Of a stretch of DNA of 64,000 nucleotides, positions 16,209 to 19,445 are shown piece by piece (the first letter of the stretch is position 1; each line of letters begins with the position of its first letter). This DNA is from Gemmatimonadales bacterium (GTDB lineage Bacteria; Gemmatimonadota; Gemmatimonadetes; Gemmatimonadales; GWC2-71-9): positions 1 to 64,000 of the forward strand of contig DATAOI010000044.1 of NCBI GenBank assembly GCA_036265815.1, in the 5' to 3' direction. Under the pieces are notes generated by a model. The model had not been told where the DNA came from and made no database searches. It saw only the letters and a program-made list of their open reading frames with translations. The translations under genes and the position numbers were made by a program.

Positions 16209-17690
16209 CTACCCTTCCTCCGGCCGGCCGAACATCAGCTGCACCAGTGGCCGGTCCTCCGGCCGGGCCAGCACGTACACGTGGTCGCCCGGCTGGAGCA
16301 CGGTGGCTCCGCGCGCCGGCAGCAACTGGTTTCCCCGCACGATCAGCGCGATCGACGCACCCTCCGGAAAGTCCAGCTCGTCGAGCGACATGCCCGCCAC
16401 CAGCACCGCCTCGTCTATATAGAAGGAAAGGAGATCGCCCTCCAGCGGCAGCCGGGACTCGATGGTGAGCACCGCGGGCGGCGCCGGCGGCTCCTTGGCC
16501 TGCAGGCCCAGCCGGCGGGTGACCCAGGCCACGGTGCCGCCCGGCACCAGCGCGTTCACCACCACGATGAAGAAGACCAGGTCGAAGATCCGCGGCGCGC
16601 CCGGCGCTCCCGCGAGCACCGGAAAGGTGGCCAGCACGATCGGCACCGCGCCCCGGAGGCCGACCCATCCGATGTAGAGACTCTCCCGCGCCGAGTAGCG
16701 GAATGGGAGGAGACAGAGCGCCACCACCAGCGGGCGCACCACGAAGGCGAGCAGCACCGCGAGCCCGAGCCCGGAGAACGCCACCGCCTCCATTCGAGAG
16801 GGAAATACCAGTAGGCCCAGCACCAGGAACATGCCGATCTGAGCCAGCCACGCGAGCGCGTCGTGCACCCGGAGCAATCCCGGCCGAAATGGGAGCGGTC
16901 CGTTGCCCAGCACCAGTCCGGCCAGGTAGACCGCGATGAAGCCACTGCCGTGCAGCAGGGTGGTGGCGCCGTAGGCCAGGAGGGCCAGCGCCAGGGTGAG
17001 CGCGGGATAGAGCCCACCGCTCTGGAGGTGCAGCCGAGCCAGGAGCTGGCGCCCCCAGTAGCCCAGTGCCACGCCGAGGATGCCGCCCACGGCGAGCTGC
17101 ACCAGGACTTCCACTCCGACGTGCCACGCGTCGGTCTCACCGGGGCGCAGCAGGTTGGTGGTGAGCGCGGTCGTCAGGATGACGGCCACCGGGTCGTTGA
17201 GTCCGGACTCCAGCTCCAGCGTGGTGCCGACCCGCCGGCGAAGCTGGAGCCCGCTGCCCCGCAGAATGGCGAACACCGATGCGGCGTCGGTGGAGGAGAC
17301 GATGGCGCCGAGCAGCAGCGCCTCGGGCCAGGAGAGTCCCCACGCGTGGGCGGGCACGGCCAGCAGCGCGCCGGTGAGCGCGACGCCCACCGTGGCCAGC
17401 ACCGATGCGGGCGCCCAGGAGCGGCGCATCGCCTGCAGCGGGGTGTTGAGTCCGCCGTCGAACAGGATCAGAGCCAGCGCCAGCGAGCCGAGGCGGAAGG
17501 CGAAGCCATAGTCGGCGAAGGCGATCCCGCCGACGCCCTCGGAGCCGGCCAGCATGCCGATGAGCAGAAACAGCAGCGCGATGGGCACGCCGATCCGCTG
17601 CGACGCCCGGCTGAAGAGCACACTCACGCCCAGCAGGAGGCCGCAGGTGGTGAGCAGCAGGGCGGTGGCGGTGGGCTCGTGCACGGTCAT
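16209..17690 (-). CDS. Potassium/proton antiporter, CPA1 NhaP2/CvrA type
   Basis: This 493-aa protein has about 12 transmembrane helices of the Na+/H+ exchanger fold (PF00999 type), then a C-terminal regulatory region with a TrkA-C-like domain (EGASIALIVRGNQLLPARGATVLQPGDHVYVLARPED). The ion-binding helix carries SSTDAASVF and LESGLNDPVA, typical of CPA1 antiporters. The TrkA-C domain and overall length match the NhaP2 (CvrA) branch, which exports K+ or Na+ in exchange for protons. The start at 17690 is placed at the ATG beginning MTVHEPTATALLL; the frame runs open to 18182 antisense to the neighbour. It is divergent from the second antiporter, with 60 bases between. Confidence 0.88.
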   Translation of the reverse strand: MTVHEPTATALLLTTCGLLLGVSVLFSRASQRIGVPIALLFLLIGMLAGSEGVGGIAFADYGFAFRLGSLALALILFDGGLNTPLQAMRRSWAPASVLATVGVALTGALLAVPAHAWGLSWPEALLLGAIVSSTDAASVFAILRGSGLQLRRRVGTTLELESGLNDPVAVILTTALTTNLLRPGETDAWHVGVEVLVQLAVGGILGVALGYWGRQLLARLHLQSGGLYPALTLALALLAYGATTLLHGSGFIAVYLAGLVLGNGPLPFRPGLLRVHDALAWLAQIGMFLVLGLLVFPSRMEAVAFSGLGLAVLLAFVVRPLVVALCLLPFRYSARESLYIGWVGLRGAVPIVLATFPVLAGAPGAPRIFDLVFFIVVVNALVPGGTVAWVTRRLGLQAKEPPAPPAVLTIESRLPLEGDLLSFYIDEAVLVAGMSLDELDFPEGASIALIVRGNQLLPARGATVLQPGDHVYVLARPEDRPLVQLMFGRPEEG

Positions 17691-17750: not shown

Positions 17751-19304
17751 ATGACCCATGACAGCTTCCCCGCGCTGCTCGCCCTGGTGGGCATCGTCAT
17801 TATCGTCTCGTCTCTGCTCTCCGGAGTAGTCGAGCGGACCGGGCTCCCCCAGGTTGCCATCTTCCTCCTGATCGGCGCCGTGCTCGGCCCCGCGGGGCTG
17901 GGGCTGGTGGATCTGCGCCTGGAGTCGCCCGCGCTCCAGGTGATCGCGACGCTGGGCCTGGTGCTGGTGCTGTTCAGCGACGCCATCGGAGCGGACATCG
18001 GCGAGATCCGGCAGCAGCGCCGGCTCGCGGCGCTTATCCTGGGTCCAGGGACGCTCCTGCCCGCCGCCATCACCGCGCTCGCGGCCTGGCTCCTGCTCGG
18101 CCTCCCACCGGCGGCAGCGGCCATCCTGGGCGCCGCCCTCGCCTCGACCGATCCGGTCCTGCTGCGGACCCTGATCCGCCACCCCAGCCTGCCCCCCTCG
18201 GCCCGGCTCGCGCTTCGTCTGGAGAGCGGGATGAACGACGTGATCCTGCTTCCCATCGTGGTGCTCTGCATGCTGACCCTCCAGGCCGGCATCGCCGCGC
18301 CGGCCTGGGAGATCGAGAGCCGCGCGGTGGGCCTCTTCCTGCTCGGGCCCATGCTGGGCGCGTTTGCCGGCTGGGTGGCGATCACCCTGCTGGACCAGGT
18401 GCGCCGGCGGGTCGGCGTCCGGCGGGATTACGAGTCGCTCTATGCGCTGGGGGTGGCGTTCTCCGCCTACGCGGCAGCTGAGGCGGTGGGCGGGAGCGGG
18501 TTCCTGGCGGCCTTCGGGGCCGGGCTGGTGATCGCGGCGCTGGACGTCGAGCTGTGCGACTGCTTCCTCGACTACGGCGAGGCGTCGGCGGAGATGTTCC
18601 TGCTGCTCACCTTCGTGGCGTTCGGCGCGGGGCTCATCTGGACGGGGTTCCGGGTGGCGGGGGACTGGCGGGTGCTGCTGTTCGCGGTGGTGGCGCTGGG
18701 CGGACGGACGGCGGCGCTCTTTCCGGTGCTTCGGGGCTCCGTCGTGGGGGAGCGGGACCGCAATATCATTGCGATGTTCGGCCCGCGGGGCCTGAGCTCC
18801 CTCCTGCTGGTGCTGCTGCCGGTATTCGCCGGGATTCCGGGCGCGGAGCAGCTGTTCGAGATCACCTCACTGGTGGTGCTGCTGTCGGTGGTGGTGCATG
18901 GTGGCGGCATCGCACTCTATCTGCGGCGGCACGGCGGGGCGGCCGCGGTGTCCGCTCCGTCGGATACGGCCCGTCCCCAGTTGGCGGACACCGGGTTTCA
19001 CCCCGCATCGTCGTCGCATCCGCAGCTCGCGGATACGGCCTTCCACGTCACCCCGCTTCCGCGCGCTCGACCGGCGTCGGTGGACGGCGAGCCGGTACCC
19101 GAGCGGATCACCATCCAGGAGTTCCGCGACCTGCACCGGTCCGGCGAGCCAATCGTGGTGGGCGACGTCCGCACCGAGCGGAGCTACCGGGACGATCCCC
19201 ACATCGGCACCGGCGCCATCCGCCTGCCGCCGGACGATGCGGTGCGGCTGGCGCGGCAGAAGAGCCTCGACCAGCACGCCACCATCGTCCTCTACTGTGC
19301 GTGA
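17751..19304 (+). CDS. Na+/H+ antiporter (NhaP type) with C-terminal rhodanese domain interrupted by in-frame TGA
   Basis: Residues of about 1-395 form a CPA1 antiporter with some 12 helices; key motifs are ASTDPVLLRTL and LESGMNDVILLP. A Pro/Ala linker with a partly repeated PQLADT(G/A)FH follows, then a rhodanese domain from about residue 452 (ITIQEFRDLHRSGEPIVVGDVR). The domain reaches the active-site loop IVLYCA and then meets TGA at codon 518. The same frame continues without a shift for 46 more codons that encode the expected end of a rhodanese domain (see the 19302-19445 entry). So the product is either truncated, a pseudogene tail, or a selenoprotein. Antiporter-rhodanese fusions are known; the physiological link is not. 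Confidence 0.88.
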   Translation: MTHDSFPALLALVGIVIIVSSLLSGVVERTGLPQVAIFLLIGAVLGPAGLGLVDLRLESPALQVIATLGLVLVLFSDAIGADIGEIRQQRRLAALILGPGTLLPAAITALAAWLLLGLPPAAAAILGAALASTDPVLLRTLIRHPSLPPSARLALRLESGMNDVILLPIVVLCMLTLQAGIAAPAWEIESRAVGLFLLGPMLGAFAGWVAITLLDQVRRRVGVRRDYESLYALGVAFSAYAAAEAVGGSGFLAAFGAGLVIAALDVELCDCFLDYGEASAEMFLLLTFVAFGAGLIWTGFRVAGDWRVLLFAVVALGGRTAALFPVLRGSVVGERDRNIIAMFGPRGLSSLLLVLLPVFAGIPGAEQLFEITSLVVLLSVVVHGGGIALYLRRHGGAAAVSAPSDTARPQLADTGFHPASSSHPQLADTAFHVTPLPRARPASVDGEPVPERITIQEFRDLHRSGEPIVVGDVRTERSYRDDPHIGTGAIRLPPDDAVRLARQKSLDQHATIVLYCA

Positions 19305-19445
19305 AAGGACGAAGCCACAAGCACCCGGGTGGTGCGAGAGATGAGAAGGGCGGGATGGAAGAAGGCCCGGGCGCTGGTGGGCGGCTGGGCAGCGTGGCAG
19401 GCGGAGGGGTTGCCGGTGGAACCCAAGGACGGCACCACCGGCTGA
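19302..19445 (+). other. In-frame TGA and conserved rhodanese continuation (possible Sec recoding)
   Basis: After TGA (19302-19304) the antiporter-rhodanese frame stays open to a TGA at 19443-19445. The 46 codons include EATSTRVVREMRRAGWKKA and ALVGGWAAWQAEGLPVEP, a normal rhodanese C-terminus with the GGW...W...G.P pattern. The TGA replaces the residue two after the YC cysteine in the active-site loop, a position that in relatives reading YCxCPNEATS is Cys, as I recall the family. Candidates: selenocysteine insertion, a TGC/TGT to TGA nonsense mutation, or a base-calling error. A small hairpin at 19321-19335 lies where a bacterial SECIS could be. No selA/selB/selC is in the window. Confidence 0.6.

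Follow-up and report, generated by a model that had tools for sequence, protein, structure and literature searches.

Does the gene that starts at position 17751 of the window, by which we mean the whole stretch of 64,000 nucleotides analysed, encode an antiporter that ends at the in-frame TGA at 19302-19304, or is this codon read as selenocysteine (Sec) within a longer protein? An earlier note on this DNA had proposed the TGA as a selenocysteine candidate. Our analysis argues strongly for this reading, with a probability of about 0.95 that the UGA at 19302 is decoded as Sec in a 564-residue antiporter-rhodanese. The prediction is based on the Sec machinery of the genome, a homologous codon that is either TGA or Cys, the link between TGA and SelA, a SECIS-like hairpin, purifying selection beyond the TGA and a match to the rhodanese family NF041203.

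A reading frame that continues past the TGA

The frame that begins with the ATG at 17751 is open for 517 codons up to the TGA at 19302-19304, which lies right behind ...ATIVLYCA. Translation beyond it gives 46 sense codons (KDEATSTRVVREMRRAGWKKARALVGGWAAWQAEGLPVEPKDGTTG) and then a second TGA at 19443-19445.

17751..19442, + strand: predicted selenoprotein gene, CPA1-type cation/proton antiporter with a C-terminal rhodanese domain; 564 aa, Sec as residue 518, stop at 19443-19445 (from translation, Pfam, AlphaFold and Foldseek)
19302..19304, + strand: in-frame TGA, predicted selenocysteine codon (residue 518; from the homologue comparison and the Sec machinery in the genome)
19305..19442, + strand: C-terminal part of the rhodanese domain, 46 codons past the TGA (from frame conservation and dN/dS)

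Pfam assigns residues 19-392 to Na_H_Exchanger (PF00999, 132 bits against a gathering threshold of 26.2) and residues 456-552 to Rhodanese (PF00581, 39.8 bits against 22.2). The latter match spans the TGA and agrees, as does the translation, with the claim of the earlier note that an intact rhodanese C-terminus follows in the same frame. An AlphaFold model of the read-through protein, computed from a 31-sequence alignment with Sec entered as Cys, reached a mean pLDDT of 86.7 and values above 90 over nearly the whole rhodanese domain, with a disordered linker at residues 400-445. The best Foldseek matches of the model were PaNhaP, at the top, and MjNhaP1, an NhaP fold in keeping with the CPA1 type, and KefC was also among the matches. 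N162 and D163, the Asn-Asp pair of CPA1, do not vary across the fusion alignment, so the transporter core looks functional. We propose that the rhodanese half is a cytoplasmic domain of this 564-residue integral membrane antiporter.

The homologous codon was compared in 59 sequences, namely the window, 56 of the 57 relatives that a scan of genome contigs had yielded, and L081 and L087, both from the family search. It is TGA in 52 of them, mostly from Gemmatimonadota, Acidobacteriota, Chloroflexota and Myxococcota, and TGC or TGT in the other seven (L029, L036, L057, L059, L060, L070 and L071); no other codon occurs. The contig scan was not biased towards TGA, because its peptide pattern encoded Cys at that site, and in pattern-free whole-genome searches of the family and the phylum all fusions that reach the codon carry TGA. 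L065, whose sequence stops short of the codon, was left out of this count. In L065 and L116 the antiporter jumps abruptly to an unrelated oxidase-like frame inside the rhodanese, which is lost; both are probably truncated or chimeric assemblies, and we excluded them from the comparison. At L060:5000-5600, in the chromosome of Candidatus Manganitrophus GAC4, antiporter and Cys-rhodanese are in different frames, reflecting a frameshift or a sequencing error.

The codons flanking the TGA vary by species, for instance TGT GCG TGA AAG, TGC GCC TGA ACG and TGC ACC TGA ACC, so the TGA is not one copied error. The earlier note had left room for a base misread in sequencing or a Cys codon newly mutated to a stop, and a single base does separate TGA from TGC or TGT. 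We reject this explanation as extremely improbable: many independent assemblies, including those of related species, agree on the TGA while their synonymous codons nearby differ. In nearly all homologues the next stop follows about 42-58 codons past the TGA. Measured against close relatives, the 40 codons after it have a dN of 0.10-0.26 and a dS of 0.38-1.89, and their dN is not above that of the 60 codons preceding the TGA. These rates point to purifying selection on the codons past the TGA, and the downstream frame shows none of the decay that the earlier note had also judged absent. As 51 homologues from outside the window share the TGA, and dN stays well below dS behind it, the in-frame TGA is not a matter of chance.

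A tree built from 54 fusion proteins cannot be explained with fewer than three changes between Sec and Cys. Proteins with Sec come from Acidobacteriota, Chloroflexota, Gemmatimonadota and Myxococcota, plus a Thermomicrobiota row on a long branch, those with Cys from Nitrospirota, Armatimonadota and a single Chloroflexota row; the fusion of antiporter and rhodanese has been kept across these phyla. Carriers of the TGA gene include the cultivable Ktedonosporobacter rubrisoli and Dictyobacter aurantiacus. The conservation of the fusion bears on an alternative reading, a genuine stop, in which the protein would end after YCA and the downstream frame would be a remnant or untranslated. A standard annotation would say so, and the listing of open reading frames gives a 517-aa ORF. 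Against this stand the conservation of the frame past the TGA over several phyla, the low dN relative to dS, and the model, in which truncation at that point would deprive the rhodanese fold of its final helices and strands.

Selenocysteine machinery and a SECIS-like hairpin

The genome of the window (4.59 Mb, 119 contigs, 99% complete) was searched for selA, selB, selC and selD, as the earlier note had suggested, and holds all of them. The tRNA-Sec scores 67.6 bits against an Rfam gathering threshold of 47, has a TCA anticodon and the canonical long form, and is the sole match over the cut-off. SelB scores 336.9 against a cut-off of 242.25, SelA 436.8 bits and SelD 377.4 against a cut-off of 125, and none of these protein genes has internal stops. 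Across 50 genomes, a strong SelA match is present in 40 of 43 with TGA and in one of seven with Cys (L059), a difference with a Fisher p of 3.5e-5, uncorrected for phylogeny. The three TGA genomes that lack such a match are the draft MAGs L040 and L056, and L064. The last is a Scytonema scaffold with a TGA fusion in a genome without SelA; in the tree it falls within Oscillochloridaceae, and we regard it as probable contamination.

It is also conceivable that UGA is read as another residue, either because the code has been reassigned or because a tRNA that reads UGA carries Cys or Ser, and the alternative residue at the codon is indeed Cys. However, the sole tRNA match over the cut-off is a canonical long tRNA-Sec, SelA, SelB and SelD are all in the genome, TGA is tied to SelA across genomes, and the gene itself terminates with TGA at 19443. 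We regard this alternative as highly unlikely.

A candidate SECIS lies shortly behind the codon.

19321..19335, + strand: SECIS-like hairpin GCACC-CGGGT-GGTGC; the apical loop starts 21 nt past the UGA and its second base is G

All five base pairs are intact in each of the 52 TGA sequences, compared with 3.57 expected under a synonymous-codon null in which codons were redrawn from each gene's own usage. The loop, CGGGT or CGTGT and in a few sequences with another end, starts 21 nt past the UGA throughout this set. Among 28 diverse sequences, both partners have changed in three of the five pairs (C-G to U-A, G-C to A-U), and 100% of cells were paired as against 93.6% in shuffles, with none of 500 shuffles as high. 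Shifting the partner strand along destroyed the pairing pattern, and RNAalifold, unprompted, returned exactly the same hairpin. Only one of the seven Cys homologues keeps the five pairs. Below the 5-bp stem no consistent pairing of a lower stem was found in the TGA sequences, and we claim the upper stem alone. The distance of the hairpin and its loop G agree with the bacterial SECIS model, and by this covariation pattern it appears to behave as a bacterial SECIS should.

A hairpin conserved beyond codon requirement, together with the replacement of TGA by Cys mainly in genomes without SelA, further weakens the case for a genuine stop, which we consider very improbable. The favoured reading is instead that SelB and tRNA-Sec would insert selenocysteine at the UGA at 19302, with the hairpin at 19321-19335 as the directing signal; the machinery, the conserved TGA or Cys codon and the hairpin are all in favour of the candidate raised by the earlier note. 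Under the standard code, the gene would be an antiporter cut off in a useless stub. Read through, it would be a conserved selenoprotein of the membrane in which selenium redox chemistry is combined with ion exchange, and the fusion could give Gemmatimonadota and other mostly soil lineages a concrete reason to keep their Sec machinery.

The active-site loop and the antiporter half

The predicted Sec has a Cys close by in the loop.

19296..19298, + strand: Cys516 (TGT), at the canonical rhodanese active-site Cys position; invariant in the alignment and the first residue after the beta strand in the model

In the model, a strand at residues 511-515 is followed by a loop and by a helix from residue 522, with Cys516 first behind the strand. 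In rhodaneses, the catalytic Cys occupies this position right after the active-site strand. Within the rhodanese half, the fusion alignment has invariant Cys/Sec at two positions, 516 and 518. Sec518 is therefore the third loop residue, two beyond the canonical Cys516 and not a replacement for it, forming the motif Cys516-Ala-Sec518 (C-x-U). The placement of Sec in the rhodanese active-site loop, as proposed in the earlier note, stands. C-x-U occurs in every TGA homologue, as YC[AT]U in most. The earlier note had also taken the Lys behind the TGA, where Pro was expected, as a slight counter-sign; since K, Q, H, T, V, P, S, R and G all occur there in TGA homologues, this residue is no objection. 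Redox or persulfide switching fits the C-x-U pair at least as well as the putative gain in sulfur/selenium transferase activity that the earlier note suggested.

A dithiol motif is located in the antiporter half, and the gene next door offers a comparison.

18543..18566, + strand: DVELCDCF dithiol motif (residues 265-272), at that end of the helix pair 250-264 / 266-301 which is predicted to face the cytoplasm
16209..17690, - strand: divergent neighbour, a conventional potassium/proton antiporter with TrkA_C (Pfam Na_H_Exchanger and TrkA_C); no LCDCF and no rhodanese

Every fusion that covers the region has [ED]LCDCF at residues 267-272, pattern-free loci included. We discount that DVELCDCF is invariant among the homologues collected first, since the contig scan used this peptide as a pattern; the motif held in the loci from whole-genome searches, and in pattern-free fusion loci the residues before it vary (DAELCDCF, DIELCDCF, DVDLCDCF, DLELCDCF). 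LCDCF is absent from the compared antiporters without a rhodanese, the divergent neighbour included. One such antiporter, L086, has the Cys-rich stretch GNCCRSVCSCLYEF where the fusions have LCDCF. From a helix count that starts at the C-terminus, assumed to be cytoplasmic as in the family, and from the positive loop at 216-226, we predict that LCDCF lies on the cytoplasmic face, on the same side as the rhodanese. The head-to-head antiporter pair is kept within the genus (also in G046, G047, G048 and L018), and among the neighbouring genes at ten loci we found no common partner or pathway pointer other than this genus-level divergent antiporter.

As LCDCF goes together with the rhodanese domain, the two halves of the fusion may talk to each other. 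The C-x-U pair on the cytoplasmic side could form a reversible selenenylsulfide or take up a persulfide or an oxidant. Its redox or persulfide state might then be handed to the antiporter half, perhaps by exchange with Cys269-Asp-Cys271 at the cytoplasmic helix end, and cation/proton exchange would thereby be switched by redox or sulfane-sulfur stress. That such a switch gates the antiporter is a tentative proposal by analogy, to which we give somewhat less than even odds. Alternatively, the Sec could be real and the rhodanese half a membrane-tethered enzyme without any gating, be it a sulfur/selenium-transferase or a C-x-U oxidoreductase, whose substrate is carried by or near the antiporter. 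This main rival is a realistic possibility too, if one we would not bet on. Stand-alone C-x-U rhodaneses are a known selenoprotein family (NF041203; PMC13188914), and the taxonomic family of the window also has single-TGA rhodaneses that lack an antiporter match, which suggests that the domain can work alone. On the other hand, LCDCF in the antiporter half accompanies the rhodanese domain, and the fusion is kept across phyla. If gating is the right reading, these proteins could form a class of ion exchangers, widespread and so far undescribed, that depend on selenium: their Cys-x-Sec rhodanese would sense oxidants, electrophiles or sulfane sulfur and, via Cys-Asp-Cys in the membrane domain, gate the exchange of cations for protons. 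We hold this view with similar caution, as plausible but short of probable; selenium chemistry would then be coupled directly to ion transport.

Known relatives of the fusion

The rhodanese half has a close relative in NF041203 (rhodanese_LYCAU, 'rhodanese-related (seleno)protein'), whose profile positions 23-126 align to residues 453-559 with an E value of 2.2e-22 and which is matched by all 31 fusion proteins scanned. The window protein scores 79.1 bits, below the cut-off of 115 bits, and is related but not filed as a member. Both share the domain and the C-x-U (YCAU) loop, whereas the known family is a 126-position domain and the fusion has an antiporter in front. A 2026 inventory of prokaryotic selenoproteins treats this type as rhodanese-like form 3, CxU (PMC13188914). 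Many genomes of the window's taxonomic family (G012, G015, G017, G026, G028, G041, G066 and G067) have rhodaneses in which a single TGA lies in frame and no antiporter is matched; these are probably further C-x-U selenoproteins. The TsoB rhodanese/DsbD fusion-like selenoprotein (NF045694) also combines a rhodanese with a membrane redox protein, yet the match is weak (E 4.6e-4, far below the cut-off) and its membrane partner differs from the antiporter of the fusion; the inventory describes two Sec in a UxxxxU motif for TsoB (PMC13188914). The main text of the inventory lists no antiporter among selenoproteins (PMC13188914), and our search for a selenoprotein or rhodanese domain with an antiporter returned no relevant paper within the literature covered. 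What we describe is a known C-x-U rhodanese domain type, in a fusion with an antiporter for which we found no description.

The membrane half resembles the potassium/proton antiporters of the PRK05326 type (NF003716, NF003715 and NF003714; CPA1), aligning over residues 8-389 with an E value of 8.4e-40 and keeping the Asn-Asp pair, though at 136.7 bits it remains below the 355-bit cut-off of these equivalogs. In the fusion, a TrkA_C-type tail, as in the neighbour, is replaced by the rhodanese, and LCDCF is added. A functional analogy, and only that, is offered by KefB and KefC, in which an exchanger core is likewise combined with a cytoplasmic C-terminal sensor. KefC is a K+/H+ exchanger gated via a glutathione-binding cytoplasmic domain. 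Its sensor is a Rossmann (KTN) domain, whereas the putative sensor of the fusion is a rhodanese with Cys-x-Sec.
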